DNA of 39,441 nucleotides from Candidatus Anoxymicrobium japonicum. Lineage in GTDB: Bacteria; Actinomycetota; Geothermincolia; Fen-727; Anoxymicrobiaceae. Positions 6,948 to 38,384 of the stretch are shown here, one piece after another. Position numbers and translations under genes: made by a program. Position 1 is the first letter of the stretch. Every line of letters starts with the position of its first letter. The stretch covers positions 7,035 through 46,475 of the forward strand of contig PHEX01000009.1 in the NCBI GenBank assembly GCA_002843005.1. Reading direction: 5' to 3'. The notes under the pieces were generated by a model. The model was not told the origin of the DNA. It searched no databases and saw nothing but the letters and a program-made list of their open reading frames with translations.

Positions 6948-6954
6948 CTTTTGT

Positions 6955-6999: not shown

Positions 7000-7024
7000 T
7001 GCCAGGAAAGCAACATCGATCTGC

Positions 7025-7060: not shown

Positions 7061-7180
7061 ACCAAAAGTAAAGGATTGTTGCTGTCGATTAGAGAAATAT
7101 TCGATAAATTAATATAGTCCTTTTGCCAGGGAGCCGGAATTACAAATCGGGTTATGCCTGGTTTTTTTGTCTGGAGGATG

Positions 7181-9094: not shown

Positions 9095-9097
9095 GCG

Positions 9098-11479: not shown

Positions 11480-11505
11480 CCCCCGATCAGATCATTTACT
11501 GCGTA

Positions 11506-11650
11506 GGGGGTCAGGCACCGTCTACCGCTTTAGCGGTAGACGGAGAGGTAGACGGTGCCTGACCCCTTTTTGCGTTTAGCGGTAGACGGAGCGGTAGACG
11601 GTGCCTGACCCCAGGTTGCGGTAGACGGTGCCCCTCTACTTGACCCCTCT
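11506..11650. repeat. Cluster of three GGTGCCTGACCCC-family elements
   Basis: Three head-to-tail elements fill most of this gap. A long palindrome (11506-11566) is followed by a half-element, GCGGTAGACGGAGCGG ... GGTGCCTGACCCC (11578-11612), and a further degenerate copy whose core is broken to GGTGCCCCTCTACTTGACCCC (11621-11646). The block lies between the NlpC/P60 gene and the promoter of the SpoIID gene. No protein-coding sequence is evident. Confidence 0.8.
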
Positions 11651-11661
11651 CGCAGTAAAAC

Positions 11662-11689
11662 TTGATATTTATCAGGAATGAACTATAAT
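11662..11689 (+). promoter_or_regulatory. Sigma-70-type promoter of the SpoIID-module gene
   Basis: TTGATA (11662-11667) and TATAAT (11684-11689) are separated by 16 nt, one of the best promoter matches in the window. It lies 24 nt before the ATG at 11713, and a GGAAGG ribosome-binding site sits at 11702-11707. Confidence 0.6.
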
Positions 11690-11712
11690 TAACAAAAACA
11701 ACGGAAGGTAAC

Positions 11713-14124: not shown

Positions 14125-14128
14125 GAAC

Positions 14129-15145: not shown

Positions 15146-15179
15146 TGCCACCGTCTCCGCGCGCGTCAGTACAACCAAC

Positions 15180-15207
15180 TTGAGATACCGATCCACCTGA
15201 TGATAAT
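15180..15207 (+). promoter_or_regulatory. Putative promoter of the dTDP-sugar operon
   Basis: TTGAGA (15180-15185) and GATAAT (15202-15207) are separated by 16 nt. They lie upstream of the ATG at 15247, which has a strong AAGGAGAGAG ribosome-binding site. Confidence 0.5.
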
Positions 15208-15246
15208 ATCCTGGGGTTGCTCAATTTTCCAATAAGGAGAGAGTCG

Positions 15247-16311: not shown

Positions 16312-16322
16312 GGAGAGGAAAC

Positions 16323-16778
16323 ATGATTGACGGCGTCGTGATCAAGCAGTTGAAGGTCATCCCCGACGAGCGCGGGCGCCTGACGGAGATGCTCCGCAGC
16401 GACGACGAGGTTTTCGAGAGATTCGGGCAGGCGTACGTGACCACGACTTACCCGGGTGTCATCAAGGCGTGGCACATGCACCACAGGCAGAACGACAACG
16501 TGGTATGCGTGCGCGGGATGATCAAGCTCGGGCTCTACGATGGACGGGTGAGTTCGCCGACGCGCGGCGAGGTGCAGGAGATCTTCCTTGGCGAGCACCG
16601 GCCTGTGCTCGTGCATATTCCCAAAGAGGTATATCACGGCTGGAAGTGCGTGAGCGAAAACGAGGCGTTTATCGTAAACATGTCTACCGAACTCTACGAC
16701 TACGACGACCCGGATGAGCAAAGGCTTCCGTACGACACGGATCAGATACCGTACGACTGGTCTGTCAAGCACGGCTGA
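16323..16778 (+). CDS. rfbC: dTDP-4-dehydrorhamnose 3,5-epimerase-like cupin protein
   Basis: A small RmlC-like beta-barrel protein (151 residues, shorter than the usual 180 or so). It carries the conserved start DERGRLTEMLR, the catalytic-type histidine region WHMHHRQNDN (RmlC-like WHxHxxQ), and VHIPKEVYHGWKC. It lies between rfbA and rfbB and probably epimerises a dTDP-4-keto-6-deoxyglucose intermediate. Because it is short and I cannot check the second catalytic Tyr, it could be a different sugar epimerase or isomerase of the same superfamily. The GGGAGAGGAAAC ribosome-binding region and 11-nt gap after rfbA indicate co-translation. Confidence 0.75.
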   Translation: MIDGVVIKQLKVIPDERGRLTEMLRSDDEVFERFGQAYVTTTYPGVIKAWHMHHRQNDNVVCVRGMIKLGLYDGRVSSPTRGEVQEIFLGEHRPVLVHIPKEVYHGWKCVSENEAFIVNMSTELYDYDDPDEQRLPYDTDQIPYDWSVKHG

Positions 16779-16798
16779 CCCCGGGCGAACGCGACGAG

Positions 16799-17773
16799 GT
16801 GAAGCAGTTGAGAATTTTAGTGACGGGCGGGTGCGGTTTTATTGGCTCGAACTTTATACGCTATATGTTCGAGACCCATGACGGCATCGCAATAACCAAC
16901 CTGGACAAGCTCACTTACGCGGGCAACCAGGAGAACTTGAGGGATATCGAGGACGCATGCGACTACACGTTCGTCAAAGGCGACATATGCGACGAGGTCC
17001 TCGTGGATCAGCTTATCTCCGAGGGGTACGATGCGGTGATCAACTTCGCGGCCGAGAGCCACGTCGACCGCTCTATTACGGATCCGGCGCAGTTTATCAA
17101 GACCGACATTTTTGGGGCGTTCACCTTGCTGGAGGCGTGCCGCCGCAGGCACGTGCGCCGTTATCTCCAGGTATCGACCGACGAGGTTTACGGCTCGATC
17201 GAGGACGGCTCCTTCACCGAGCAATCGAACCTGGCTCCGAACAGCCCGTACTCCGCGAGCAAGGCGGGGGCGGACCTGCTCGTGCGGGCCTATCACAAAA
17301 CGTACGGGATGCCCGTGCTGATCACGCGCTCCAGCAACAACTTTGGACCGTATCAGTACCCTGAGAAGCTCATCCCGCTGTTCATAACGAACGCCATCGA
17401 CGACATCGGATTGCCGCTTTACGGTGACGGGCAGAATGTGCGGGACTGGCTTTTTGTGACGGACAACTGCGCGGGGATAGACCTCGTGCTTCGGAAAGGC
17501 GAGCCGGGTGAGGTGTATAACATAGGCGGCGGACAGGAAAGAACCAACATTGAAATAACCAGAAGCGTTCTCTCCGCGCTCGGAAAGCCCGAATCGCTTA
17601 TTCATTACGTGGACGACCGCCCCGGCCACGACCGCCGTTACTCGCTTGATTTCAAAAAGGCGGCCGCCCTGGGTTATAGTCCGCGCTCGGACTTCGGTGC
17701 AATGCTCGAGGAAACCGCGCGTTGGTACGTCGATAACCGGCCCTGGTGGGCGTCCCTGAAGCCACAGAAGTAA
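16799..17773 (+). CDS. rfbB: dTDP-glucose 4,6-dehydratase
   Basis: An extended short-chain dehydrogenase (324 residues) that converts dTDP-glucose into dTDP-4-keto-6-deoxyglucose using bound NAD. It shows the Rossmann motif TGGCGFIGSNF, the family segment NFAAESHVDRSI, the catalytic STDEVYG (Thr, Asp, Glu) and YSASK (Tyr, Lys). RSSNNFGPYQYPEKLIPLF and NVRDWLFVTDNC are diagnostic of RmlB. The start is either GTG 16799 or, with the better-spaced GAGGTG ribosome-binding site, TTG 16808. It is the last gene of the rfbACB operon, which ends at the terminator at 17772. No rmlD reductase is present here, so the pathway to dTDP-L-rhamnose is incomplete in the window. Confidence 0.92.
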   Translation: MKQLRILVTGGCGFIGSNFIRYMFETHDGIAITNLDKLTYAGNQENLRDIEDACDYTFVKGDICDEVLVDQLISEGYDAVINFAAESHVDRSITDPAQFIKTDIFGAFTLLEACRRRHVRRYLQVSTDEVYGSIEDGSFTEQSNLAPNSPYSASKAGADLLVRAYHKTYGMPVLITRSSNNFGPYQYPEKLIPLFITNAIDDIGLPLYGDGQNVRDWLFVTDNCAGIDLVLRKGEPGEVYNIGGGQERTNIEITRSVLSALGKPESLIHYVDDRPGHDRRYSLDFKKAAALGYSPRSDFGAMLEETARWYVDNRPWWASLKPQK

Positions 17774-17814
17774 AAAACGCAACACCGGGGCCTGACCCCA
17801 TTGTTGCGTTTTTT
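17772..17814. terminator. Intrinsic terminator with GGGGCCTGACCCC core
   Basis: AAAAAACGCAACA (17772-17784) pairs perfectly over 13 bp with TGTTGCGTTTTTT (17802-17814); the loop is 17 nt. The stem overlaps the end of the rfbB stop codon and closes that operon. It is closely related to the two palindromes at 6955 and 7025. Confidence 0.8.
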
Positions 17815-17827
17815 GCAAAGCGTCAAG

Positions 17828-17856
17828 TTGGATCCGCTGTATTCCGATTCTATAAG
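17828..17856 (+). promoter_or_regulatory. Putative promoter of the beta-propeller gene
   Basis: TTGGAT (17828-17833) and TATAAG (17851-17856) are spaced by 17 nt. They precede the AAAAGGTGA ribosome-binding site at 17884-17892. Confidence 0.5.
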
Positions 17857-17897
17857 CGTAGGCGTGTGCGCTGACACAGATAGAAAAGGTGATTGGA

Positions 17898-20645
17898 TTG
17901 TTGACTTGTGGTAAGAAATTCATGGCGTGGACGCTCGCTCTGGCGCTGGCGTCGTTGATGACAGTAATTCCTGGAGCGCCCGCGGCGGAAATGGACAGGC
18001 CGATAAAAGCTCAAGTTGACGTGCAGTCAGCTTTCAATGACGCCAAGTTGAGCGTGGCCGACATCGATGGTGACGGCCAGGACGAGATACTGGCCGGGAA
18101 CATGAACGGCCATCTGTACTGTTTCACGGCGAAGGGGCAGGTCAAGTGGGCTTTCCATGCCGGGGCGTCAATCCGCGGTGGCGCGGCGTGCTATGACGTT
18201 GACGGCGATAAGAAGAAGGAAATCTTCTTTGGCGACATGGCCGGTCGCGTCTGGGGCCTCAACTCGAGCGGCGGCGTGCTCTCACAGTGGGGATGGCCCA
18301 AGCAGACGCCGAATACAGGCGGCTTTGTCAGTGTCTATTGCACACCCGCGATTGGCGACGTCAACGGGGACGGGGCACCCGATATTGTTGTTGGCGCCTA
18401 TGGACATTACGTTTACGCGTGGAGCTATTCAGGCGGCCTGCTTCCCGGCTGGCCGTACGATACCAAGGACACGATATGGTCCTCGCCGGCGCTGGCGGAT
18501 ATTGACCGCGACGGCCTGAAGGAAATCATCATTGGCGGCGACTGCACGGGCGGCAGCGGCTGGCCTTACCCGTCCGGCGGGCTCCTGTGGGTATTCAACG
18601 GGGACGGCAGCGTACAGCCGGGCTTCCCAAAATGCACACCGGAAGTCATCTGGTCCTCGCCAGCGTGCGCGGATATCGACAACGATGGATATTACGAAAT
18701 AGTCGTGGGCACGGGACACTACTACACAGCCATGGGCAGGCTTTCGAGTGAAGGTTTCCGGGTGTACGCCTGGAATCACGATGGCTCGGATTGCGCGGGT
18801 TTTCCGGTAGCGACGCTCGGCTGCACGATGTCGTCACCCGCGATAGGCGACATAGATGGTGACGGCATAAAGGAGATCGCTATCGCCTCGTATCCGGTGG
18901 CCGGCAAGGGCACCGACAGCATCATGCTGATCAAGGGCAACGGACAGAAGATGTGGGAAATAGCGGGGCTCCCCGGCCCTAACAGGGCATCCCCGGCGCT
19001 TGGTGACGTCAACGGTGATGGCAACTCCGAGGTCATCATAGGTTCCGGCTCGGAGATGTTCGCCTGGGACGCCCGGGGCAATCGCGTCTGGCATCATCCG
19101 GATACGGATAAATATCCTACGATGTCGGGCCTGGACAGCATGGTCATCACGAGCCCCGTGGTCGGAGATTTCGACCGCGATGGGCGCATAGAGGTCGCGC
19201 TCGGCACCGGCGGGGAATCGGGCGGAGGTAGTTTCTACGTGTTTGATTGCGGTCCGAAAAAGAGCGGGGCCACGGGCGATCTGCTGTGGCCGCAGTTTCG
19301 GAAAAACGCGGAGCACACAGGGAACATACCGACCGGCAACGAGCCACCACCACCGCCGCCACCGCCACCGCCGGCGAATTTTCACGAGTACATCTTGCTC
19401 ATGAACCCAGGAAGCGTGGCCGCGAACGCGACTGTCGAGCTCATGAACGAGAAGGGCGAGAAGAAATCCGTCAGGATGAAGGTTGCCGCATCTTCACGCG
19501 CGACCGCTATGATCAACCGTTCTATGTCGGGGTGTGGCGTGAGCGCGCGCGTGATCTCGGATGCGCCGGTCATCGCTGAGCGCGCTATGTACTTCAACTT
19601 CCAGAACAAGTGGAAAGGCGGGACAGACTCGGCTGGCGCGACGGCGCCGTCGAAGACGTGGTACCTGGCGGAAGGTTACACGGCGGACAACTTCGACGAG
19701 TACGTGCTGGTTCAGAACCCGCAAAAAAACACGGTTACCGTCAATATGGCTTTCATGCGCGAGAAGAACACACCTGTCTATGCGTCCTTCAGCGTCCAGC
19801 CGGAAAGCCGGTTCACACTTAACGTGAAAGACGTTCCCGGTCTCATGGGAGCTTCCGTGTCCACAATGGTCAACGCGACAGGTGACGTCATCTGTGAGCG
19901 TTCAATGTACTTTGATTACAACGGGTTTGTGGGAGGTCACAACGCGATGGGTGTCACCGCTCCCCAACTCAACTGGTATCTCGCTGAGGGCTACACCGCG
20001 CAGAGTTACGACACTTACGTGCTCGTGCAAAACCCGGGGACGAAACCGGCGAACGTTACGGCGACAATGCTTCGGAAAGATGGCTTCACGCGCGAGATGT
20101 CTTTCGCGATTCCCGCTCAGAGCCGTAAGACCATCATAGTGGATGAGGTTCCGGGCTTTGAGGCCGCGGAGGTTTCCACTCAGATTACGTCGAACGTCGG
20201 GGTTATCGCCGAGCGCGCTATGTACTTCAACGCGGATGGACGTACGGGAGGACACGACGCGGCTGGCGTGAGCGAGCCCGCAAAAACGTGGTACCTGGCC
20301 GAGGGGTTCACCGGCGGGTCTTTCGACGAGTACGTTCTCATCATGAACCCGGGCGACGCCGCCGCAGTCGTCAAGACCACTTTTATGCCCGCCAAAGGGA
20401 GTCCAACGTCCAGGATGGACGCCTTGAAGCCTCACTCACGGTTCACTATCCACGTGGACGAGCAGCCCGGCCTTGATAACGCTGAGGTCTCGACGTGTGT
20501 CGAGGTTCAAGGCGCGGGCCAGGTTATCGCGGAGCGGGCAATGTATTTCGTGTACAACGGGGTCTGGTCGGACGGGCACGACGCCGCAGGCGTAAAAGAA
20601 GCGTCGAAGGAGTGGTACTTCGCCGAAGGTTACACCGGAATGTAA
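17898..20645 (+). CDS. Secreted FG-GAP/VCBS beta-propeller with four C-terminal modules
   Basis: An exported protein of about 915 residues. The signal peptide (WTLALALASLMTVIPGAPAA) is followed by a beta-propeller with eight Ca-binding loops of the type DxDxDGxxE (for example DIDGDGQDEIL, DVNGDGAPDIV, DIDRDGLKEII, DIDNDGYYEIV and DFDRDGRIEVA). Each probably marks one blade. Ten consecutive prolines link the propeller to four envelope modules that begin NFHEYILLMNP and end WYFAEGYTGM at the stop. The propeller is probably a binding or adhesion platform; no catalytic residues were recognised. Candidate starts are GTG 17889 and TTG 17898 or 17901. The TTGs fit the ribosome-binding site better. 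It has its own promoter and is followed by repeat sequence. Confidence 0.82.
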   Translation: MLTCGKKFMAWTLALALASLMTVIPGAPAAEMDRPIKAQVDVQSAFNDAKLSVADIDGDGQDEILAGNMNGHLYCFTAKGQVKWAFHAGASIRGGAACYDVDGDKKKEIFFGDMAGRVWGLNSSGGVLSQWGWPKQTPNTGGFVSVYCTPAIGDVNGDGAPDIVVGAYGHYVYAWSYSGGLLPGWPYDTKDTIWSSPALADIDRDGLKEIIIGGDCTGGSGWPYPSGGLLWVFNGDGSVQPGFPKCTPEVIWSSPACADIDNDGYYEIVVGTGHYYTAMGRLSSEGFRVYAWNHDGSDCAGFPVATLGCTMSSPAIGDIDGDGIKEIAIASYPVAGKGTDSIMLIKGNGQKMWEIAGLPGPNRASPALGDVNGDGNSEVIIGSGSEMFAWDARGNRVWHHPDTDKYPTMSGLDSMVITSPVVGDFDRDGRIEVALGTGGESGGGSFYVFDCGPKKSGATGDLLWPQFRKNAEHTGNIPTGNEPPPPPPPPPPANFHEYILLMNPGSVAANATVELMNEKGEKKSVRMKVAASSRATAMINRSMSGCGVSARVISDAPVIAERAMYFNFQNKWKGGTDSAGATAPSKTWYLAEGYTADNFDEYVLVQNPQKNTVTVNMAFMREKNTPVYASFSVQPESRFTLNVKDVPGLMGASVSTMVNATGDVICERSMYFDYNGFVGGHNAMGVTAPQLNWYLAEGYTAQSYDTYVLVQNPGTKPANVTATMLRKDGFTREMSFAIPAQSRKTIIVDEVPGFEAAEVSTQITSNVGVIAERAMYFNADGRTGGHDAAGVSEPAKTWYLAEGFTGGSFDEYVLIMNPGDAAAVVKTTFMPAKGSPTSRMDALKPHSRFTIHVDEQPGLDNAEVSTCVEVQGAGQVIAERAMYFVYNGVWSDGHDAAGVKEASKEWYFAEGYTGM

Positions 20646-24362: not shown

Positions 24363-25247
24363 ATGAACGACTTGCCCGAGCGCGGTGACTGTGGAAGCAG
24401 GGTCGAACGCCGGCGTGAAAGATCTCTAAAGAAAGCCCAAAGAAGGCGCGCCACGGCGATCGCCTTCTCGGTTTCCTTGATACTGATCGTCCTGCTGGGC
24501 GCCGGTGGTTGGGTCATCTACCGGAGGGCGAGCGCTCGTCGCGGTCCGACGCCAAGGACGTACGCGGTTACATTGCCCGAGGGTCTGAACGCCACGGAGA
24601 CGGGAGAGAGGTTTGAGGAAGCGACAAACGGTTCTATAAAAGCGGCGGAGTTCTCGCGAGCACTGAAAGCCGGCGGTTATGACTACAGCTTTCTTAAAGG
24701 GACGAAGGGCAATCTGGAGGGCTTTCTCTTTCCCAACACTTACCAGGTGACTTCAACGACCACCGCGCGCGAGACGGTGGACAAACTGCTTTGTGATTTC
24801 AAGAAAGAGACCGACGACCTCGAGTGGAACCGCGCGGCAGAACTCGGGGTCACGCCTTATCAGATCGTGATAATCGCCTCGTTAATCGAGAAAGAGGTCA
24901 AGTTGTCCACGGAGCGGCCGCTTGTGGCGTCGGTGATTTATAACAGGCTCAAGAAGAACATGAAACTGGGGATGTGCTCGACCGTGCTCTACGCGCTCGG
25001 CCAGTGGAAGCCGAAGCTCACCAACAAAGATATCGAGGTGGACTCCCCGTACAACACTTATAAAATAAACGGTCTCCCGCCGGGTCCGATATGCAATCCC
25101 GGCTTCGAGTCTATCCGCGCGTCGTTGTTCCCCGCGACGACAGATTACTTATACTTTATCCTGACCGGCCCTGAAGGCAGTCACAGCTTCACGAGCGATT
25201 ACAGGCAATTCGACATCTGGAAAAACGAGCAAAACAAAAAGCAATAG
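24363..25247 (+). CDS. mltG: Endolytic murein transglycosylase MltG
   Basis: Inner-membrane lytic transglycosylase that cuts nascent glycan strands and sets their length. A basic, cytoplasmic N-terminus of about 30 residues precedes a single transmembrane helix (IAFSVSLILIVLLGAGGWVI). The YceG domain follows, with GNLEGFLFPNTY, ASLIEKEV (catalytic Glu at about residue 176), ASVIYNRL and SPYNTYKINGLPPGPICNPG. At 294 residues it is shorter than E. coli MltG, mainly in the LysM-like N-domain. It is followed directly by an intergenic palindrome whose first bases overlap the TAG stop. Confidence 0.93.
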   Translation: MNDLPERGDCGSRVERRRERSLKKAQRRRATAIAFSVSLILIVLLGAGGWVIYRRASARRGPTPRTYAVTLPEGLNATETGERFEEATNGSIKAAEFSRALKAGGYDYSFLKGTKGNLEGFLFPNTYQVTSTTTARETVDKLLCDFKKETDDLEWNRAAELGVTPYQIVIIASLIEKEVKLSTERPLVASVIYNRLKKNMKLGMCSTVLYALGQWKPKLTNKDIEVDSPYNTYKINGLPPGPICNPGFESIRASLFPATTDYLYFILTGPEGSHSFTSDYRQFDIWKNEQNKKQ

Positions 25248-25320
25248 GGGTCTGGCAACGTCTACCGCTTTAGCGGTAGACGGTGCCTGACCCCTGCCTT
25301 GGTAGCGGTAGACGGTGCTC
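25246..25320. repeat. GGTGCCTGACCCC-family palindrome plus partial copy
   Basis: AGGGGTCTGGCAACGTCT ... GCGGTAGACGG ... GGTGCCTGACCCCT (25246-25295) is followed by a partial copy, GGTAGCGGTAGACGGTGCTC (25301-25320). The left arm has TCTGGCAACG where the perfect copy at 34112 has TCAGGCACCG, so this copy has three arm mismatches. It overlaps the mltG stop and separates the housekeeping block from the hydrogenase-like operon. Confidence 0.85.
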
Positions 25321-25348: not shown

Positions 25349-25837
25349 GTGGTGAAGGTTGAAGGCGCAAAACATGAGCCTGAGCTCAAGGCGCTGATGC
25401 GCATGGTGTTTATCTTGGATGTCACGATTGATGGCGTATTAGGCAAAGGTGCTCATGCCATGATGTACCAGTCGGGGCGCGATACTGGCCGCGTCCAGGG
25501 GCGCCTGGCCGCGCGAACAGAGGATTTTGACACGGCTTTGCGGTCTGTGCTTGCCGAAGGCGAAGGCGTATGGCGGTTCGAGTATTGGAAAGATCCCGGT
25601 CAGCAGGATCACTGGATACACGGCGGCGACAGGAGCTCCGCGTGGCTGGTATTCAGGAGTTGTCCGCTCCAAAGGCTCACTCGCGCTGTTGGAACAAAAC
25701 CTGGCGGATTGCTTTGTCACGCTTTTCACGGCTACATGATCGGTTGTATGGAAATGGCGCTCGGCCGGCGGGTAGACATGAAGATTGGCCATTGCGGACC
25801 GCGGGCGTGCAAGGTGCAAGTGGAGATGAGGAAGTGA
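25349..25837 (+). CDS. V4R-like small-molecule-binding protein
   Basis: A protein of about 162 residues whose C-terminal third (LLCHAFHGYMIGCMEMALG, then GHCGPRACKVQVEM) resembles the end of V4R domains, which bind small molecules or metal through conserved Cys residues. No membrane segment or DNA-binding domain is apparent. The longest reading frame would start at 25283 inside the palindromic repeat. I prefer GTG 25349 because ACGGAGA (25336-25342) is well placed and the upstream codons only translate repeat sequence. Its stop overlaps the ATG of the hydrogenase-like small subunit by 1 nt, so it is almost certainly co-translated with it. A role as a ligand sensor or accessory for that complex is inference. 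Confidence 0.55.
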   Translation: MVKVEGAKHEPELKALMRMVFILDVTIDGVLGKGAHAMMYQSGRDTGRVQGRLAARTEDFDTALRSVLAEGEGVWRFEYWKDPGQQDHWIHGGDRSSAWLVFRSCPLQRLTRAVGTKPGGLLCHAFHGYMIGCMEMALGRRVDMKIGHCGPRACKVQVEMRK

Positions 25838-26691
25838 TGTATGTCGCGACAGTTGCTCTGAGCGCGTGTGGTGGATGCGAGAACGCGCTGCTCTCGATAG
25901 GTGAACCTCTAATAGCGCTCTTGAGCGAGCATGCCATCTCGTTCTCGAGCTTGCTGGTGGACAGGCGGTCGATCTCTCCGTCGGACGTTGTGCTCGTGAG
26001 CGGTTGCATAAGCAATGACGAGGAACGCGCAATCGCGTCCGAGATCGCTCACATCAGCAGAAAGATAATCGCTGTCGGTTCCTGCGCGGTTTACGGTGGG
26101 CTGTTTGGCTCGCGGAAAATTATTGACAACAGTTGCGACGACGCTCTCGATGCGATTTTGCCACGTGTTTTTGAGCACGTCGAGCCTCTGGATTCGAGAG
26201 TGGATGTCGAGCTGTACGTCCCTGGATGCCCACCCCCGCCGGACCTCATCTTTGAGGCTTTGAAGTCCGCGCTCGAGGGGCATGCCCCACCGCATCTGAA
26301 CAGCACGGTTTGCTCCGATTGCACACGCCGTGTGGCGCGCAAGTCGGCAAAAGCCTTTCAACTCCACCCGGGTCCGGGAGTCCCCGAGAGCGTGTGCATC
26401 CTGAACTCGGGAGTGCTCTGTATGGGTCCCGTGACACGAGGAGGCTGTCGCGCCGCGTGTCCACAGGTGGCCGCGGCGTGTCTGGGTTGCAGGGGACCCG
26501 CGGACGCCGTTCTTTCGTCGCAGTTGCACTCGGTGCGCTCTGACTTGATTACTTATATCGCGCGCACCACAGGATCGCGCGAGGAGAAGGTCGCCCGACA
26601 GATTGAACCGATGCGGCAAGCGCTTTACATGTTCACAGGCTCAGACCCGGTGACAAAAGCGAAAGTCAAGGAGATGGCGCCAGATGACTGA
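25837..26691 (+). CDS. [NiFe]-hydrogenase-like small subunit (MvhG/group 3-type)
   Basis: An iron-sulfur subunit of 284 residues that would pass electrons to or from the NiFe site. Proximal-cluster ligands are visible as C11 and C14 (SACGGCEN), C83 (VGSCAVYGG) and C131 (VPGCPPPPD). The C-terminal half carries eight further Cys (CSDC; CILNSGVLCMGPVTRGGC; CPQVAAACLGC) in the order typical of group 3 (MvhG/HoxY-like) small subunits, so two more clusters are likely. No Tat signal is present, so it is cytoplasmic. The reading frame is open upstream inside the V4R gene; ATG 25837 gives the standard N-terminus and has AGGAAG nearby. It overlaps the large-subunit start by 8 nt. No HdrA, MvhD, F420- or NAD-binding subunit is present. 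Confidence 0.88.
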   Translation: MYVATVALSACGGCENALLSIGEPLIALLSEHAISFSSLLVDRRSISPSDVVLVSGCISNDEERAIASEIAHISRKIIAVGSCAVYGGLFGSRKIIDNSCDDALDAILPRVFEHVEPLDSRVDVELYVPGCPPPPDLIFEALKSALEGHAPPHLNSTVCSDCTRRVARKSAKAFQLHPGPGVPESVCILNSGVLCMGPVTRGGCRAACPQVAAACLGCRGPADAVLSSQLHSVRSDLITYIARTTGSREEKVARQIEPMRQALYMFTGSDPVTKAKVKEMAPDD

Positions 26692-28036
26692 TCGGAAAGA
26701 ATCCGCGTTGGGGGAGAAAATTCGTTTGTACCCGGTTACGCGCATACAGGGGCGCGCCGACATCGAGATACTTTTTACCCCGCAACAGGTGGTCGCCGAG
26801 GCGCGTTTCAGGGCGCTCGAGACGCGGGGCATCGAGCGTATGGTCGTCGGAAAGCCCGCTCTCCGCGTGCCGCAAATCCTTGCCAGGACGTGCGGCGCCT
26901 GTGGCCCTTTCCATCAGCTCGCATCCGCTATGGCGATCGAGTCCGCGTGTGGCGTGGAGGTGCCCGAAGATGCCACGTCACACAGGGAAACGCTTTGCTG
27001 GCTATTCCTTGCCGCTACTCAGATAAAGACCATGATTTTTCAGATTCTTCCCGACTTCGCTCTTCCGATGTCGGATGCGGCGGTCAAGAACATCACCGGC
27101 ATATACATGGTAGATCAGGAGTCTGTGAGCAGGCTCTCTTCTGTGCTTGTTTCTATCGATAAGGCGCTCGAGGAGCTCAGCCGCAACCGATTTCACCCGG
27201 GAGCGATTGTCGTAGGCGGTGTTTCCGGGTTGCCTGACCAGGCGGCGGTTGACAGGGCGTTAGAGCTTTTGGATGGATGTGCCGACAATCTCCACGAGAG
27301 TATGCGCCTGGCGGAGATGCTGACAAGGCGTGAGTCGAAGATGGTGAAGAGTGACGTCTCGCTCGAGGGCTTTTACATGACGACGACCGACGCCGGCCGG
27401 CCCGCCATTCTCGGCAATGAGATCACGTGCGCACCGTTCGCTGGTGGCGAAGAATCCACTATGGAGTTTAAGGAGTTCCTGGCGTCGATTGAGGAACGAC
27501 CCGTTCCGTGGTTCTATCTTAAACCGCTTGCCGTAACTGGATTTGAGCCTTGTATGGTCGGTTCGCTTGCCAGGGTGAACGTTGGTTTCGGTCCGGATAC
27601 GCCAGTAGCGGAACTCGAGTGTGATCGCGTGCTCGAGCAGTGGGGGCATCCACTGGACAGAGAGCATTTCCTTTTGGCAGCTCTCGCGCTCGAGGCGATA
27701 TGGGGATGGGAGAAAGCCAAAAATCTGCTGGCGGAAGGAGCGGCGGATGCCCGCGAAGCGTGTGCAGGAGCGCGGCTATCCGCGTCAAATGGTTTCGCGG
27801 TTCTTGACTCGCCCGGTGGAGTTCTTGCCCACGCGGTCTCCCTGGGCTCCGACGGGGCTGTGAGTTCCTACAAGATCATGAGTCCATTGCAGTTCAACGG
27901 CATCTTGATGAACAGTTACCTCTCGAGAGTCGCGGGTGAAACGGTGATGGGAATTGAAGTGAGCGACGCCGCCGCGTCAAGGCTTGCGCGCGCTGTCAGG
28001 TCTTTCAATCCATGCGTGCCATGTGGAACGCACTGA
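26684..28036 (+). CDS. Divergent [NiFe]-hydrogenase-like large subunit, lacking conserved outer-shell residues
   Basis: A catalytic-type subunit of 450 residues. The four NiFe Cys ligands are present: C70 and C73 (RTCGACGPFHQL) and C444 and C447 (NPCVPCGTH). Several residues that surround the metal in canonical enzymes differ. The usual PVTRIEGH reads PVTRIQGR (Q22), the Arg of the PRG loop appears as Gly (SPGG, G379), and the Asp of DPCxxC is Asn (N442). The HALHF-like segment reads KTMIFQIL. The protein ends exactly at H450, where canonical precursors are cut by a maturation protease, so no C-terminal peptide would need removal. It is co-translated with the small subunit. It may be a sensory or low-activity hydrogenase, or an enzyme with another substrate. 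The alignment was made by eye. Confidence 0.87.
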   Translation: MTDRKESALGEKIRLYPVTRIQGRADIEILFTPQQVVAEARFRALETRGIERMVVGKPALRVPQILARTCGACGPFHQLASAMAIESACGVEVPEDATSHRETLCWLFLAATQIKTMIFQILPDFALPMSDAAVKNITGIYMVDQESVSRLSSVLVSIDKALEELSRNRFHPGAIVVGGVSGLPDQAAVDRALELLDGCADNLHESMRLAEMLTRRESKMVKSDVSLEGFYMTTTDAGRPAILGNEITCAPFAGGEESTMEFKEFLASIEERPVPWFYLKPLAVTGFEPCMVGSLARVNVGFGPDTPVAELECDRVLEQWGHPLDREHFLLAALALEAIWGWEKAKNLLAEGAADAREACAGARLSASNGFAVLDSPGGVLAHAVSLGSDGAVSSYKIMSPLQFNGILMNSYLSRVAGETVMGIEVSDAAASRLARAVRSFNPCVPCGTH

Positions 28037-28060
28037 CAAAGTAGAAGGCAGGCGTAAAAA

Positions 28061-28330
28061 GTGCTGGAAATAATAATCGATAAGGAGCGTTGTGTGGCCT
28101 GCGGGGATTGCGCGAGCATGTGCCCGCAAAGCGGCCCGGCAGTGGAGTTTCCAGTGCTTGAAGCAGTCGCTGGAGGTGAGGTTTTCATAAAGCGCGCTGA
28201 AGCGTGCATCGCGTGTTTCACGTGCGTCGAGTTCTGTCGGTCCGCGGCTATCACGATCGTTGGCGCTGATCCTGGCGGCGAAGAACAGCCTCCCATCTAC
28301 CCGAGCAGGCTCGTAACCCGTATAATTTAA
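28061..28330 (+). CDS. 2[4Fe-4S] ferredoxin-type protein
   Basis: A protein of 89 residues with two complete CxxCxxCxxxC motifs, CVACGDCASMC (N-terminal) and CIACFTCVEFC (central). Each is expected to bind one [4Fe-4S] cluster. The sequence after the second motif is hydrophilic, with no membrane helix. It follows the large-subunit gene by 24 nt and is probably the electron donor or acceptor of the hydrogenase-like pair. The start is GTG 28061, with AGAAGG somewhat far upstream. Its stop codon lies inside the left arm of the nested palindrome at 28327. Confidence 0.85.
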   Translation: MLEIIIDKERCVACGDCASMCPQSGPAVEFPVLEAVAGGEVFIKRAEACIACFTCVEFCRSAAITIVGADPGGEEQPPIYPSRLVTRII

Positions 28331-28472
28331 CTTTCGGGTCAGGTCTTTTTTTAAAGTTTAAGAGGGGTCTGGCAACGTCTACTGGCAACGTCTACCGCTT
28401 TAGCGGTAGACGGTGCCTGACCCCTCTGGACGAGCGATCGACTTAAGAAAAAAGACCTGACCCGAAAGTTAA
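28327..28472. repeat. Nested palindromes: 25-bp outer arms enclosing a GGTGCCTGACCCC-family element
   Basis: The outer arms, TTAACTTTCGGGTCAGGTC plus a T-run (28327-28351) and their exact reverse complement (28448-28472), are 25 bp and perfect. Between them lies an element at 28362-28427 (GAGGGGTCTGGC ... GCGGTAGACGG ... GGTGCCTGACCCCTC) with an internal duplication of TGGCAACGTCTAC. The outer arms also contain GGGTCAGG / CCTGACCC, so two related palindromes are nested. The structure separates the ferredoxin gene from the Roadblock cluster and may fold into one large hairpin. Confidence 0.85.
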
Positions 28473-28548: not shown

Positions 28549-28911
28549 ATGCGCGAAGAACAGATGATAGAGACACTCAAAAAGTTGAGATCTGACAGTG
28601 ATAGTGTGCAGGCAGTGGCGCTCATAAGTTCCGATGCGATGCCGCTTGCGTCTGACATGCCGGATGGCATGACCGAGGAGCTTCTCAGCGCCACGGCTTC
28701 TTCGCTGATTGCGTCGGGGGAAAAGGTTGCCGGTGAGCTTTTGAGAGGCGACGTCGAGCAGGTTTATCTTCGGGGAAGCTTTGGCGATCTGGTCGTTGTC
28801 AAGGTGAACGATGACGTTATTCTTGCGTGCGCCGTTGATAACCAAGCGAAGATGGGCATGACTCTTCTCGATGTCAATCGTTGCGCGCAAAAGCTCGCCG
28901 GGATTATTTGA
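28549..28911 (+). CDS. Roadblock/LC7 domain protein (first of two)
   Basis: A single-domain protein of 120 residues. The central strand pattern (VQAVALISSDAMPLAS ... VYLRGSFGDLVVVKVNDDVILACAV) is that of Roadblock/LC7 (MglB-type) proteins, which bind small GTPases and often act as activators (family knowledge). The ribosome-binding site is CAGGAGG upstream of ATG 28549. It is the first gene of a block that continues with a second Roadblock protein, a DUF4388-type scaffold and a GTPase. The two Roadblock proteins are clearly diverged and may form a heterodimer (inference). Confidence 0.8.
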   Translation: MREEQMIETLKKLRSDSDSVQAVALISSDAMPLASDMPDGMTEELLSATASSLIASGEKVAGELLRGDVEQVYLRGSFGDLVVVKVNDDVILACAVDNQAKMGMTLLDVNRCAQKLAGII

Positions 28912-28975
28912 AGTGAGACAATGTGAGGTTAGTGAGGTCGTGTGGTAGAATTGATTAAAAAAGAGGTAAGAACGC

Positions 28976-29374
28976 ATGGATAGTATTCAACAGAACGAAC
29001 TTGAGGAAACGCTCAAGGGGCTTTTGGAAAAGACAAAGGATATCGATGCGGCCGCGGTTGTGAGCATGGATGGGTTCGTGATGGCGTCGATCCTTCCTGA
29101 GAGCTACGAGGAAGATCGCCTTGGAGCTATGTCGGCGGCGCTCTTGAGCCTCGGGGAGAGAACCGCCCATGAGTTTGGGCGTGGAGAGCTGGCACAGGTT
29201 TTTGTGGAAGGCGCCGATGGATATGTGTTCCTGTTGGCCGCCGGTGAGGACGCGGTGTTGAATGCTGTTGTCAAGCGTGGAAGCAAACTCGGGCTTGTCC
29301 TGTACGATATCAAGAACACGGCAAAGGCAATCGCCGCCATCATCGAATCACATCTCCAGGTTGAATACGAATAA
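28976..29374 (+). CDS. Roadblock/LC7 domain protein (second of two)
   Basis: A protein of 132 residues with the Roadblock/LC7 fold signature: DAAAVVSMDGFVMAS, a helix carrying GERTAHEFGRGELAQVFVEG, and YVFLLAAGEDAVLNAV. It is closer to MglB-type proteins than is its upstream neighbour. The start is ATG 28976, preceded by AAGAGG. It lies 64 nt after the first Roadblock gene and 39 nt before the DUF4388-type gene, so it is part of the same operon. A GAP or scaffold role for the GTPase at 32609 is inferred from related clusters. Confidence 0.82.
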   Translation: MDSIQQNELEETLKGLLEKTKDIDAAAVVSMDGFVMASILPESYEEDRLGAMSAALLSLGERTAHEFGRGELAQVFVEGADGYVFLLAAGEDAVLNAVVKRGSKLGLVLYDIKNTAKAIAAIIESHLQVEYE

Positions 29375-29398: not shown

Positions 29399-32455
<3,057 letters not shown>

Positions 32456-32462
32456 TCTGTAG

Positions 32463-32589
32463 AGGGGTCAGGCAACGTCTACCGCGCAGCGGTAGACGGT
32501 GCCTGACCCCTGGTTGCGGTAGACGCAGCGGTAGACGGTGCCTGACCCCTGGTTGCGGTAGACGCAGCGGTAGACGGTGCCTGACCCCT
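32463..32589. repeat. Palindromic element followed by two perfect 39-nt tandem copies
   Basis: A full palindrome (32463-32511) is followed by two identical 39-nt units, 32512-32550 and 32551-32589. Each unit runs from GGTTGCGGTAGACGCAGC to GGTGCCTGACCCCT. The block lies between two genes of the same predicted operon, and its end is only about 7 nt from the GTPase ribosome-binding site. Perfect identity of the units suggests a recent duplication. Confidence 0.9.
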
Positions 32590-32608: not shown

Positions 32609-33151
32609 TTGGATAGAGTCTACAAGATAGTGGTGACTGGCCCGTTCAACTCCGGGAAGACTACTTTTATAAATGCGATAAGCGAGATTGAAGTGGTTTC
32701 CACCGAGAGAAAAATGGGGCGGGGAAGCGAAAAATGCGACACCACCGTCGCGATGGACTTTGGTCGCATCACATTTCCTGACGGGTACTCTCTCCACCTT
32801 TATGGAACGCCGGGTCAGGCGCGCTTCGACTTCATGTGGGAGATACTCTCCGAGGGAATGCTTGGCTACGTGGTTCTGGTTGATGGCAGCAAGCCGTCAT
32901 CGTTTGGTGAGGTGGACGGCATAGTCAGGGCTTTTGCGGGCATGTCGGATAAGCCGTGCGTAGTGGGGCTCACGAGGTCGGACCACAAGGATTGCTTTTC
33001 AGCGGACGAGATAAGAAATAATATTGATTGTCTTCAAGACAAGGATATCGTTGGATGTGACGCGAGGAAGTTGACTGACGTCAAGGAAGTTCTACTGGCC
33101 TTGCTCGAGAAAGTGATGGCTAGGGCGGAGGCTCTGGAACAGACAGGTTGA
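32609..33151 (+). CDS. Small Ras-like GTPase (MglA/CvnD-like)
   Basis: A GTPase of 180 residues. The P-loop is GPFNSGKTT (residues 11-19), and switch II reads YGTPGQARF with GTPGQ at 66-70 in place of the classical DxxGQ. The G4 motif is TRSD (122-125) rather than NKxD, as seen in prokaryotic CvnD/COG2229-type GTPases. Together with two Roadblock proteins and a DUF4388 protein it resembles a conservon or MglAB module that controls polarity or motility in other bacteria. The start is TTG 32609 with AGGAGGG (32597-32603). Only the repeat block separates it from the DUF4388 gene. The pilus genes begin 1 kb downstream. Confidence 0.85.
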   Translation: MDRVYKIVVTGPFNSGKTTFINAISEIEVVSTERKMGRGSEKCDTTVAMDFGRITFPDGYSLHLYGTPGQARFDFMWEILSEGMLGYVVLVDGSKPSSFGEVDGIVRAFAGMSDKPCVVGLTRSDHKDCFSADEIRNNIDCLQDKDIVGCDARKLTDVKEVLLALLEKVMARAEALEQTG

Positions 33152-34111: not shown

Positions 34112-34159
34112 GGGGTCAGGCACCGTCTACCGCTTTAGCGGTAGACGGTGCCTGACCCC
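34112..34159. repeat. Perfect 48-nt palindrome, best copy of the GGTGCCTGACCCC family
   Basis: Two 23-bp arms, GGGGTCAGGCACCGTCTACC onward (34112-34134) and their exact reverse complement (34137-34159), are separated by TT. This is the least diverged member in the window and gives the family consensus. It lies between the aroE stop and the pilB ribosome-binding site. Confidence 0.95.
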
Positions 34160-34179
34160 TCGACCAAGGAAGACACAGA

Positions 34180-35868
34180 ATGGAGAAGCCGAAGCAAGAC
34201 CGCCTGGGGCGGCTCATGCTCGAAAACAATCTGATAAGTGAGGATCAGCTTGAAGAGGCTCTCCAGGAGCACTCGAGCACCGGCAAGTCACTTGGTCGTG
34301 TGCTCATAGAGAAAGGCGTTCTCACCGAAGGGCAGCTTACGTCAGTTCTCGCGGAGCAAATAGGCATCCGGTACGTCGACCTTTCCAACTACATCGTCGA
34401 TCCTTCCGTTGCCGCGCTCATAGACGCGAATTTCGCGCGAAGGCACATACTTATTCCGATCGACTACGACAGCGACAAGCTCGTGGTGGCGATGGCGGAT
34501 CCAACCAACGTGTTCGCTCTCGATGATCTGCGTATCATGACGGGCAGGGCGATCGCGCCGGTTGTGGCGACCAAGAAGGACATTGAAGAGGCGATAGGAA
34601 GGTACCTGCACTCCGACATGGCCGCCCAGGAGGAGCTTGAAGATTTCTCTCTCGACGAAGAGAACGTGATCGAGGAGGTGGAGGATCTCAAGGAGATGGG
34701 GGAGGAGGCTCCTATCGTAAAGTACGTCAACCTCATAATCAGTGAGGCTGTTGTTGACGGCGCAAGCGACGTTCATGTCGAGCCGGGGGAGAAAGACATA
34801 CGCATCCGTTATCGCATAGACGGCGTGCTTCGCGAGATCCGGCGATCCCCGCGGCGCATTCACCCCGGCATAGTCTCGAGGTTAAAGATCCTTGGTAGCA
34901 TGGACATATCCGAGAGGCGGATTCCGCAGGACGGCCGATTCGCGCTCGAGATAGAAGGCAAGCACATTGACCTTCGCGTGGCTTCCGTGCCAACAGTCCA
35001 CGGAGAGAAGATGGTCCTCCGGATACTCGACAGCACCTCGCTCTTGATGAACCTCTCACAGTTGGGCATCTCTCCTGATCTGTTGAAGCGGTTCACGGAG
35101 TCTTTTACGAAGCCGTACGGCACCGTGATCGTCACTGGGCCTACCGGCTCCGGGAAGACGACAACGTTGTACGCGGCTCTCTCCGAACTGAACAAGCGTG
35201 AAGTTAACATCATCACGGTAGAGGATCCGGTCGAGTACCGGCTCCACGGAACGAACCAGGTGCAGGTCAACACCAGGGTGGGCCTCACGTTTGGCACGAC
35301 CTTGAGGTCAATTTTGAGATGCGACCCCGACGTTATCATGATCGGTGAGATCCGAGACAGCGAGTCGGCCAAGATAGCTATCGAATCAGCGCTGACCGGT
35401 CACATGGTGCTGTGCACGCTTCACACAAACGACGCGCCTTCGGCTATAACCAGAATGACGGAGATGGGGGTCGAGCCGTTTCTTATTGCGTCGGCTGTGG
35501 ACAGTGTCGTGAGCCAGAGGCTTGCCCGAAGGTTATGCGTTCACTGCAGGGAAGAGACGACATACGACGCTGAGTACCTCGAGAAGATAGGCTTTCCTGT
35601 TGGTGACGAGAACAAGATTACAGTATTTAAGGCCGATCCCGGTGGATGCTTCTACTGTAATAACACCGGCTTTCGTGGGAGGATAGGAATCTACGAGGTG
35701 CTGGGGGTTGATGAGGAAATAGAAAAACTGGTTGTCAACATGTCGACCGCGCGTGAAATCGGAACGCTGGCCAGGGAGCATGGAATGGTCACTTTGCGCG
35801 GAGATGGTTTCAGCAAGGTCGCGCAAGGTATAACCTCTATAGAAGAGGTTCTTCGAGTCGTTATGTAG
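34180..35868 (+). CDS. pilB: Type IV pilus assembly ATPase
   Basis: Hexameric extension motor of the type IV pilus (562 residues). The N-terminus contains two 24-residue MshEN-type motifs (8-31 and 37-60) with exactly a 5-residue spacer, an arrangement known to bind c-di-GMP in related motors. The Q at the end of the first motif is H here. Next come the N2 domain and the ATPase core: Walker A GPTGSGKTTT, Asp box EDPVEYR, Walker B CDPDVIMIGEIRD, His box LHTNDAPSA, and a zinc tetracysteine (CVHC ... CFYC). ATG 34180 has AAGGAAG upstream. pilT begins 16 nt after the stop. Confidence 0.93.
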   Translation: MEKPKQDRLGRLMLENNLISEDQLEEALQEHSSTGKSLGRVLIEKGVLTEGQLTSVLAEQIGIRYVDLSNYIVDPSVAALIDANFARRHILIPIDYDSDKLVVAMADPTNVFALDDLRIMTGRAIAPVVATKKDIEEAIGRYLHSDMAAQEELEDFSLDEENVIEEVEDLKEMGEEAPIVKYVNLIISEAVVDGASDVHVEPGEKDIRIRYRIDGVLREIRRSPRRIHPGIVSRLKILGSMDISERRIPQDGRFALEIEGKHIDLRVASVPTVHGEKMVLRILDSTSLLMNLSQLGISPDLLKRFTESFTKPYGTVIVTGPTGSGKTTTLYAALSELNKREVNIITVEDPVEYRLHGTNQVQVNTRVGLTFGTTLRSILRCDPDVIMIGEIRDSESAKIAIESALTGHMVLCTLHTNDAPSAITRMTEMGVEPFLIASAVDSVVSQRLARRLCVHCREETTYDAEYLEKIGFPVGDENKITVFKADPGGCFYCNNTGFRGRIGIYEVLGVDEEIEKLVVNMSTAREIGTLAREHGMVTLRGDGFSKVAQGITSIEEVLRVVM

Positions 35869-35884
35869 AAAGCGGAGGTGTTAC

Positions 35885-36961
35885 GTGGCACAGCAAGGAT
35901 CAAGACTCGACATAAACGAGATGCTCAAGGAAGTGATAAACCGCGGGGCTTCTGACCTGCATATCACGGTAGGTATCCCGCCTGTGTTGCGCATCAATGG
36001 CGTCCTGCAGCGGATGGATCAGCAAAAGCTCACGAGCGCCGACACCCGTGATATGGTTTACAGCATTCTCACGGCCCGCCAGCGGGAAACGCTGGAAACC
36101 AACCTGGAGTTCGACCTGTCGTACTCCGTGCCGGGCAGCGCCCGTTTTCGCGTAAACGCGTACTTTCAGAGGAACAGTGTCGGCGCGGCTTTCCGTATTA
36201 TTCCATATCGCATCAAGTCGCTCGACGAGCTCATGCTTCCGCTGGTGGTCAAAGAGTTCGCGCGGCTTCCCAGGGGTTTTGTCCTGGTGACCGGGCCGAC
36301 CGGCCAGGGCAAGTCGACCACGCTTGCCGCGATCATCGACCTCATCAATTCGACCCGTGAAGAGCACATAATCACGATCGAAGACCCTATCGAGTTTCTT
36401 CATTTGCACAAGAAGTGCATGGTCAACCAGCGCGAAGTCGGCTCGGACACACATTCGTTCGCAAGCGCCTTGAAGTATGCTTTGAGGCAGGATCCCGACA
36501 TCATACTCGTCGGCGAGATGAGAGACCTCGAGACCATACAAACCGCGCTGACCGCCGCCGAGACCGGCCACCTGGTCTTTGCGACGCTTCATACGCAGGA
36601 CGCCCCCCAGAGCATCGACCGTATAATCGACGTCTTTCCGACTTTTCAGCAGGCGCAGGTCAGGCTCCAGTTGGCCTCGACGCTACGGGCTATCGTGACG
36701 CAGCAACTGGTTCCCACAAAGGACAGGCGGTCCAGGGTTCCCGCGGTCGAGATTATGATAGCGACCTCCGCTATCCGCAACATGATCAGAGACGCGAGGA
36801 TTCACCAGATTTACTCGGCCATGCAGTCGGGCGGCCAGCTCCGGATGCAAACCATGGACGCCTCGCTCGCGGAGCTTTACCGCGCGGGCCAGACAACTTA
36901 TGAAACCGGGCTTGCGAGAGCCCACAACAGAGATGACTTCAGGCGCCTCGTCGGCCGGTAA
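35885..36961 (+). CDS. pilT: Type IV pilus retraction ATPase
   Basis: Retraction motor that depolymerises the pilus for twitching motility and DNA uptake (358 residues). It has the N-terminal ASDLHITVGIPPVLRING, Walker A GPTGQGKST, the Asp box EDPIEF, Walker B DPDIILVGEMRD, the His box LHTQDAPQSIDRI, and the PilT-specific C-terminal AIRNMIRD segment. GTG start with GGAGG at 35873-35877. It is co-transcribed with pilB. The 205-base gap to pilC contains a palindrome and a likely separate promoter. Confidence 0.94.
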   Translation: MAQQGSRLDINEMLKEVINRGASDLHITVGIPPVLRINGVLQRMDQQKLTSADTRDMVYSILTARQRETLETNLEFDLSYSVPGSARFRVNAYFQRNSVGAAFRIIPYRIKSLDELMLPLVVKEFARLPRGFVLVTGPTGQGKSTTLAAIIDLINSTREEHIITIEDPIEFLHLHKKCMVNQREVGSDTHSFASALKYALRQDPDIILVGEMRDLETIQTALTAAETGHLVFATLHTQDAPQSIDRIIDVFPTFQQAQVRLQLASTLRAIVTQQLVPTKDRRSRVPAVEIMIATSAIRNMIRDARIHQIYSAMQSGGQLRMQTMDASLAELYRAGQTTYETGLARAHNRDDFRRLVGR

Positions 36962-36970
36962 TGTCCATTT

Positions 36971-37058
36971 TTATCACAAGCAAGAATGCCCGTGTCACAC
37001 TTCCTAGCCCCGGGGCCACCGCGCGCGAAGCGCGTGGGGTGGAGAGGGTTGGAGGGGG
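36971..37058. repeat. CACAxxCAagaaTGxxxGTG hairpin and GC-rich palindrome downstream of pilT
   Basis: CACAAGCA-AGAA-TGCCCGTG (36975-36994) is an imperfect hairpin of the same design as the one at 38413. It is followed by a GC-rich palindromic stretch, CCACCGCGCGCGAAGCGCG (37016-37034), and a G-rich run. Neither is part of the GGTGCCTGACCCC family. Termination after pilT is possible. Confidence 0.45.
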
Positions 37059-37074
37059 GTATGTAGCGCTTCGG

Positions 37075-37103
37075 TTCATAGAATCGAAAAATAGTGCTAT
37101 TAT
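37075..37103 (+). promoter_or_regulatory. Putative promoter upstream of pilC
   Basis: TTCATA (37075-37080) and TATTAT (37098-37103) are separated by 17 nt. They are 64 nt upstream of the GTG start of pilC. Confidence 0.4.
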
Positions 37104-37166
37104 TGTGATTGGTGAGGCGTAGGCAGGGTAAGGATATCGGTTCGGTCACGTTGGGAGGTTCTTAAA

Positions 37167-38384
37167 GTGGCCACAGAGTTCACATATACAGTCAGAGACC
37201 GTACGGGCCGCGAGATATCAGGGTCACTGGAGGCCGAGAACTCGGAAGTTCTATCTGGAAAGCTTCGCCAGATGGGGTACGTCATTGTCAGCATCGAAGA
37301 AGTCAAAGTGTCGATGGGCAAGAAAGAGATTTACATCTTCGGCGCAAAGGCGAAGCAGGAGGATGTGAACATATTTACCCGGCAGTTCGCGACCATGATC
37401 AATGCCGGGCTTCCCCTGATCAAGTGCCTGAGCATCCTGGCCCGGCAGACGGAGTCCAGCGTGCTTGCCGACATCATCACCGATTGCCAGAAAGAGGTGG
37501 AAGGTGGGCGATCCCTGTCCGAGGCCCTCTCGAAGCATCCCCAGGCGTTCAGCAATCTGTACGTGGCGATGGTGCGCGCCGGCGAGATGGGCGGCATGCT
37601 CGATGACGTTCTTTTGCGTATTGCCGAGCAGCTCGAGCGTGAGTTCGAGATCCACCGCAAGGTAAAATCGGCGATGACGTACCCAATAGCTATCATGGCG
37701 CTGTCATCGCTTTTGCTGGGGATAATGATCATCTTTGTGGTGCCAAAGTTCGCGGCGATGTTCGAGACGCTGGGCGGCAGCCTGCCGGCCATGACCCAGA
37801 TGCTTGTCAACTTTAGCCACTTCGTCGCCGGCCCTGGCGGCCTCGTTATTGTTGCCGTCATAGTCGGATTGGTTATCGCGTTCAGGCGGATCAAGATGAC
37901 CAAGAAGGGGCGCTACGCGATCGACAGCTTCAAGTTGAAAATGCCGTATGTCGGCACTCTCTTTCATAAAACGGCGATGTCCAAGTTCTCGAGGAGCCTC
38001 GGGGCGCTGATCTCTTCCGGGGTGCCGATCCTGGGCGCTCTCGAGATAACAGGTGAAACTACGGGCAACATGGCCGTCACAAGGGCTCTTGATCACGTGC
38101 GCGAGAGTGTCAAAGAGGGAGAGACAATCGCCAGGCCGTTGGATGAGTCCGGCGTCTTTCCTCCGATGGTGACACAGATGATTGCCATTGGAGAAGAGAC
38201 GGGAGCGCTGGACGTAATGCTCTTGAAGATCAGCCAGTTTTACGACAGCGAGGTGAACGCCGGAGTAGACAGCCTTACCGCGACGCTCGAGCCACTGTTG
38301 ATGATGTTCCTCGGCGGATCGGTCGGTTTCATCGTAATCGCGCTCTATCTGCCGATCTTCAAAGTCATCACCATGATCAAGTAA
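37167..38384 (+). CDS. pilC: Type IV pilus inner-membrane platform protein
   Basis: Polytopic T2SF-family protein of 405 residues on which the PilB/PilT motors act. Two T2SF domains are visible. The first starts at about residue 65 (FTRQFATMINAGLPLIKCL) and the second at about 270 (KFSRSLGALISSGVPILGALEI). Three membrane helices are evident: IAIMALSSLLLGIMIIFVV, GGLVIVAVIVGLVIAF and the C-terminal GSVGFIVIALYLPIF. The family signature GEETGALDVMLLKI is present. GTG start with GGGAGG (37152-37157). Confidence 0.93.
   Translation: MATEFTYTVRDRTGREISGSLEAENSEVLSGKLRQMGYVIVSIEEVKVSMGKKEIYIFGAKAKQEDVNIFTRQFATMINAGLPLIKCLSILARQTESSVLADIITDCQKEVEGGRSLSEALSKHPQAFSNLYVAMVRAGEMGGMLDDVLLRIAEQLEREFEIHRKVKSAMTYPIAIMALSSLLLGIMIIFVVPKFAAMFETLGGSLPAMTQMLVNFSHFVAGPGGLVIVAVIVGLVIAFRRIKMTKKGRYAIDSFKLKMPYVGTLFHKTAMSKFSRSLGALISSGVPILGALEITGETTGNMAVTRALDHVRESVKEGETIARPLDESGVFPPMVTQMIAIGEETGALDVMLLKISQFYDSEVNAGVDSLTATLEPLLMMFLGGSVGFIVIALYLPIFKVITMIK

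Follow-up and report, generated by a model that had tools for sequence, protein, structure and literature searches.

The four Cys, a Glu and an Arg are key residues of catalysis in [NiFe]-hydrogenases (PMC10430524), whose cofactor is made and inserted by the Hyp proteins (PMC7294309, PMC9100943). Loss of the NiFe site is already known for two membrane complexes, complex I and the MBS sulfane-sulfur reductase, in which the site and the proton-gate Glu disappeared stepwise while the iron-sulphur (Fe-S) wire stayed in place (PMC7684303). We studied a cassette of four genes at positions 25349-28330 of a 39,441-nucleotide stretch of Candidatus Anoxymicrobium japonicum DNA (contig PHEX01000009.1; the whole stretch is called the window below). 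It encodes a V4R-fold protein, two subunits resembling those of group 3c hydrogenases and a ferredoxin, i.e., a soluble group 3c-like hydrogenase core with a very probable loss of the NiFe site and with a V4R partner.

The group 3c core MvhAG/VhuAG (PDB 5odc) aligned with both cassette subunits over nearly their full length and has the same 12 small-subunit Cys. The cassette differs from it in lacking the active-site Glu and Asp, often the Arg, and the C-terminal extension; in having V4R and ferredoxin in place of MvhD/HdrABC; and in the absence of the Fe(CN)2CO maturases from five of its genomes (see below). Complex I and MBS have lost two or four of the NiFe-site Cys, whereas the cassette keeps three or four of them, as well as all four Cys of the proximal cluster, and its partner is a V4R protein. 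The H2-sensing regulatory hydrogenases (HoxBC/HupUV) have no C-terminal extension, like the cassette, and are hydrogenase cores serving as sensors (PMC7294309), but they retain a Hyp-inserted NiFe(CN)2CO and signal via a histidine kinase, neither of which occurs in the cassette system.

Gene organization of the cassette

All four genes are in the positive strand. The V4R gene (25349-25837, 162 aa) begins with a GTG just 3' of a GGAG; an alternative GTG at 25283 in the same frame sits in the terminal part of a palindromic repeat, and 25349 was therefore preferred. Next come the genes for an MvhG/VhuG-like small subunit (25837-26691, ATG start, 284 aa; Pfam Oxidored_q6 4.5e-23, NCBIfam VhuG 1.7e-36), an MvhA/VhuA-like large subunit (26684-28036, ATG start, 450 aa; Pfam NiFeSe_Hases 1.3e-17, VhuA 6.5e-36) and a 2[4Fe-4S] ferredoxin recognized by Fer4 models (28061-28330, GTG start, 89 aa). 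The V4R and small-subunit genes overlap by 1 nt in the sequence TGATG, the two subunit genes overlap by 8 nt, and 24 nt separate the large subunit from the ferredoxin; re-reading returned these frames and junctions exactly as a preliminary description of the locus had given them. Profiles and alignments both showed full-length homology of the subunits to MvhAG/group 3c.

No Hdr, MvhD, F420 or NAD subunit is encoded within the cluster, as the preliminary description had also said, and the annotated genes around the cassette include neither MvhD nor HdrABC, the rest of the genome not having been searched for them. Its further statement that no hydrogenase operon of this composition had been described agreed with the literature searched, where we found neither a V4R and hydrogenase operon of such kind nor homologous operons characterized as ordinary group 3 hydrogenases. 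Groups 1, 3b, 3c and 3d, and no V4R, are reported in a survey of hydrogenases from related clades (PMC7325909).

Conservation and distribution

A V4R-profile scan of genome contigs yielded 19 relatives, with the small and large subunit genes directly 3' in 19 of 19 loci; a first contig scan with the large subunit alone had given none. The ferredoxin gene came next in 18 loci, and the contig of the remaining one (L057) stops there. The same genes in the same order at all 19 loci is far beyond chance. Most of the genomes are metagenome-assembled genomes (MAGs), whose kinship was taken as labelled, and the loci include MAGs of Candidatus Geothermincola and Candidatus Solincola. Within the window's class the V4R gene was present in 23 of 31 genomes, and G005 holds a 24th cassette split by a contig end; the large-subunit match in G018 was an ordinary hydrogenase, not a cassette. 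No V4R relative was found in a sample of 396 genomes of Actinomycetota outside the class, and beyond Actinomycetota and Nitrospirota relatives were sought by the one contig pattern scan. Three genomes (G003, G010 and G012) keep mltG and the Roadblock genes that border the cassette elsewhere and lack the whole four-gene block between them, from which it follows that the four genes come and go as a block. The proposal that the V4R gene belongs to the operon is supported by its invariable place beside the subunits and its gain and loss together with the other three genes.

The 12 small-subunit Cys, ligands for three [4Fe-4S] clusters, were kept in 20 of 20 aligned rows and the 8 ferredoxin Cys in 19 of 19, so that 20 Fe-S Cys are invariant despite only 25-60% identity among members. 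Close pairs gave low dN/dS in every gene: V4R 0.08-0.10, small subunit 0.09-0.12, large subunit 0.09-0.21 and ferredoxin 0.15-0.16. Together these two results argue that the cassette is a working electron wire and not a relic.

Loss of active-site residues in the large subunit

In the window large subunit the proton-gate Glu of the RxEGH motif is Gln (RIQGR), the Asp before the C-terminal CxxC (DPCxxC) is Asn (NPCVPC) and the pendant Arg of the PRG motif is Gly (SPGG). Glu and Asp were each lost in 18 of 18 actinomycetotal members, whereas all 16 large subunits of ordinary hydrogenases taken for comparison from Nitrospirota and Actinomycetota have both. At the pendant Arg position, most members from other families than the window's carry Glu. 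All four NiFe-site Cys, in the N- and C-terminal CxxC, are kept in the window; across the alignment Cys70 and Cys444 were invariant, Cys447 was present in 18 of 19 rows, and Cys73, which we take to be the counterpart of a Cys bridging Ni and Fe, was Asp in 10 of the 18 actinomycetotal proteins. The altered active site noticed in the preliminary description is borne out, and the alteration is more extensive than was visible there. The window protein terminates at the His of PCxxCxxH, and the C-terminal extension was seen in none of the actinomycetotal members. The fold is intact, since the structure model (pLDDT 89.4) was closest to MvhA (5odc_F) with a TM of 0.92.

In one relative (L050:11285-12607) a TGA occupies the Cys447 codon and the last four residues are lost, the other cassette genes being intact. 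Selenocysteine at this TGA was considered and rejected: the residues that follow do not resemble the C-terminus of the family and continue into the reading frame of the ferredoxin. It was also considered for the DPC position of some Nitrospirota MvhA-like matches with an in-frame TGA, and the four readable ones had Cys there.

Hydrogenase maturation genes

Whole-genome profile searches of five cassette-bearing genomes (G000, G002, G015, G017 and G024) gave no match to HypD and none over the cut-off to HypE or HypF. The first of these is the window's genome, 99.6% complete, and in all five the cassette large subunit is the sole hydrogenase-like large subunit. Among the 31 genomes of the class, HypD was present in 24 of 24 with an ordinary hydrogenase large subunit and in 0 of 7 without one. 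With the residues for catalysis gone and the maturases for Fe(CN)2CO missing too, the large subunit has very probably ceased to convert H2, and the name hydrogenase should not be applied to it in the window organism. These Actinomycetota will be miscounted by surveys that take large-subunit homology as a sign of H2 metabolism.

HypB scored over the cut-off in G002, G015, G017 and G024, and G000 has a C-terminal fragment only. Delivery of nickel to something is therefore still conceivable; the target of this HypB may be some other nickel enzyme, or the cassette large subunit may itself have a nickel site that it supplies.

An ancestor-like cassette in Nitrospirota

One locus, L051, belongs to a MAG labelled Nitrospiraceae and has the order Roadblock-V4R-small subunit-large subunit-ferredoxin. 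Its large subunit is canonical, with RIEGH, RICGICPIPH, APRG, DPCLSCATH and a C-terminal extension, and a HypD match occurs in the same genome. In the tree it branches beside the actinomycetotal stem (100/100 for that clade, 84/81 for its grouping with L051); the cassette of L051 is the ancestor-like form. The steps of the loss are still visible from this intact form through proteins without Glu and Asp that keep four Cys to those with Cys replaced by Asp and Arg by Glu. No other V4R relative was found in the phylum among 395 genomes. That L051 might be a misbinned actinomycetotal contig was examined and rejected: GC content (0.490 versus 0.496) and tetranucleotides (r 0.87 with a locus of its own genome versus 0.55-0.78 with actinomycetotal loci) fit another locus of its genome, and for this reason we kept it, with caution. 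The surroundings, apart from the adjacent Roadblock gene, are unlike those in the window's class, and this neighbour is the one independent hint of a tie to Roadblock signalling.

The V4R-fold protein

Single-protein Pfam and NCBIfam searches gave no match for the window V4R protein, and a profile search of PDB sequences returned nothing credible. Of 15 family members, five gave weak Pfam V4R matches, the best at E 0.016; the window protein was not among the five, and none of the 15 reached the curated cut-off. A structure model built from 20 family sequences (pLDDT 87.8) had as top Foldseek matches the sensor domains of MopR, PoxR and DmpR (E 3e-5 to MopR, probability 1.00), and VIA-align 2 matched it to TRAPP Trs33 (Z 11.7) and MopR (Z 10.9). 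Judged by this model the protein has the V4R fold, so the identity first proposed held at the level of fold, not by the Pfam cut-off.

Proteins with this fold are known to bind ligands (PMC10933270). The family alignment revealed invariant C109-P110, C127, H131-G132 and C158 and an almost invariant H152 (numbers follow a 166-aa reading from 25337). These conserved Cys and His, located in the C-terminal half, suggest a putative metal or ligand site. The window protein has the fold and the conserved C-terminal-half Cys/His in common with the V4R sensor domains of MopR/PoxR/DmpR and with TRAPP Bet3/Trs33 but, in contrast to these, it is stand-alone, has about 10-16% identity to them, carries no AAA+ or DNA-binding domain and belongs to a type always encoded with hydrogenase-like genes.

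Roadblock, GTPase and type IV pilus genes

Directly 3' of the cassette, at 28549-29374, lie two Roadblock/LC7 genes, and the window's genome has no others. The first (28549-28911) matched Pfam Robl_LC7 at 4.5e-12 and the second, MglB-like (28976-29374), at 2e-18; both are regarded as context and a possible output. They are followed in the same positive strand by a DUF4388 protein with a long acidic tail (29414-32455; Pfam DUF4388 1.9e-35), a Ras-like small GTPase (32609-33151; Pfam ATP_bind_1, MMR_HSR1 and Ras, with NCBIfam small_GTP at 2.2e-9, slightly below the cut-off) and the type IV pilus genes at 34180-38384 (Pfam T2SSE, MshEN and T2SSF), namely PilB-like 34180-35868, PilT-like 35885-36961 and PilC-like 37167-38384. 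As far as the contigs reach, the gene order in the class is alaS-ruvX-mltG-V4R-small subunit-large subunit-ferredoxin-Roadblock genes-DUF4388-Ras-like GTPase-aroE-pilB-pilT-pilC, and the Roadblock genes adjoin the cassette wherever contigs extend.

In Myxococcus the Roadblock/GTPase system MglA/MglB controls type IV pili. As in that polarity module, Roadblock proteins and a Ras-like GTPase precede pilB/pilT/pilC in the window; the MglAB-type pairing is found in the neighbouring genes, not in the cassette itself. A hydrogenase-like input to MglA/MglB is not described in the literature searched, and in the window the link is known from gene context alone.

Possible function of the cassette

We tentatively favour the reading that the cassette encodes a cytosolic four-protein redox module, derived from a group 3c-like [NiFe]-hydrogenase, which would report a redox state or a ligand to the Roadblock/GTPase genes. 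The wire would have five [4Fe-4S] clusters, two in the ferredoxin and three in the small subunit, and electrons moving between these two proteins would reach the former NiFe pocket, a re-purposed site in the large subunit. The pocket would no longer be able to hold or use NiFe(CN)2CO; another metal or a small ligand probably occupies it, given that three or four of the four Cys are kept. The ligand-binding partner of the subunit pair would be the V4R-fold protein, and the module would most likely signal the redox state of ferredoxin, or a small ligand, to the Roadblock proteins and the Ras-like GTPase ahead of the pilus genes. From the sequences we infer, as putative properties of the module, that its proteins form a complex, that the pocket takes a new metal or ligand, and that the module senses and has the GTPase as its output. 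The cassette offers a testable connection, in bacteria, of redox wiring and a V4R protein with a locus for a Ras-like GTPase. A more detailed version, which is unlikely to hold in full, has a Cys4 or Cys3-Asp metal-thiolate site without CN/CO that, together with V4R, senses ferredoxin redox state or a gas and drives a Roadblock/Ras-like GTPase switch steering type IV pili.

Several observations weigh against such a signalling role, in which both the sensing, including the gas sensing suggested in the preliminary description, and the contact with the Roadblock proteins are putative. The independent Roadblock link is one MAG contig, and the Roadblock gene of L051 has an assembly gap. The Roadblock, GTPase and pilus genes remain where the cassette is absent, as the comparison with G003, G010 and G012 shows, and synteny within the class is weak functional evidence because the order includes unrelated housekeeping genes (alaS, ruvX and mltG). 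The pendant Arg and the four Cys are also still present in some of the window's family (Arg in four relatives).

The main rival, a serious though doubtful possibility, is a metabolic oxidoreductase that would convert a new substrate at the pocket near the proximal cluster; the ferredoxin would be its partner in electron transfer, and V4R would hold the substrate or deliver it. MBS offers a precedent, with two of its four Cys and the key Glu gone and polysulfide reduced at its proximal cluster (PMC7684303), and the cassette retains the whole electron wire with a ferredoxin of its own. However, the proximal cluster of MBS has three Cys ligands, whereas all four are invariant in the cassette, whose cluster is therefore not obviously opened. 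Substrate-pathway genes were found nowhere among the neighbours, and a V4R partner with Roadblock neighbours would be unusual for a metabolic enzyme.

It is improbable that the cassette forms an assembly that scaffolds or regulates the Roadblock/GTPase system, with V4R acting like the TRAPP subunits in a GTPase exchange factor and redox being secondary. The V4R-fold proteins Bet3/Trs33 are indeed TRAPP subunits, Asgard V4R/TRAPPC3, Roadblock proteins and GTPases have been examined jointly (PMC10933270), and the window genome has no Roadblock genes but those beside the cassette. Invariant Fe-S ligands would nevertheless be needless for a mere scaffold, and the GTPase locus also occurs without the cassette.

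It is very improbable that the cassette encodes an ordinary [NiFe]-hydrogenase of the group 3c-like type that converts H2 despite its unusual residues. The large subunit matches MvhA over its full length in sequence and fold and keeps four Cys in the window, active H2 sensors without a C-terminal extension are known (PMC7294309), and E. coli Hyd-1 is not fully inactivated by loss of the Glu (PMC10430524); against this stand Glu and Asp missing from all actinomycetotal members, Arg lost in the window, Cys replaced by Asp in ten proteins and HypD, HypE and HypF absent from the five genomes. Finally, a decaying relic held by synteny, which the loss of the last four residues including Cys447 in L050 and the relatives without a cassette might suggest, is scarcely credible and largely refuted by dN/dS of 0.08-0.21 across the four genes and by Fe-S Cys that stay invariant among such divergent members.

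Repeats in the window

A palindromic intergenic repeat with the core GGGGTCnGGCAnCGTCTACCGCTTTAGCGGTAGACGGTGCCTGACCCC occurs in at least five places in the window (11507-11555, 25247-25295, 28377-28425, 32463-32511 and 34112-34160), and two of its copies flank the cassette. It is REP-like and could be a mobile element or a terminator. A coding repeat of 300-320 nt, reading like WYLAEGYTGGGFDTYVLIQNP, recurs in many copies of 60-75% identity at 5700-20645 across several large genes, which match FG-GAP, DUF5719 and SpoIID and encode a family of repetitive proteins that are secreted or located at the surface.

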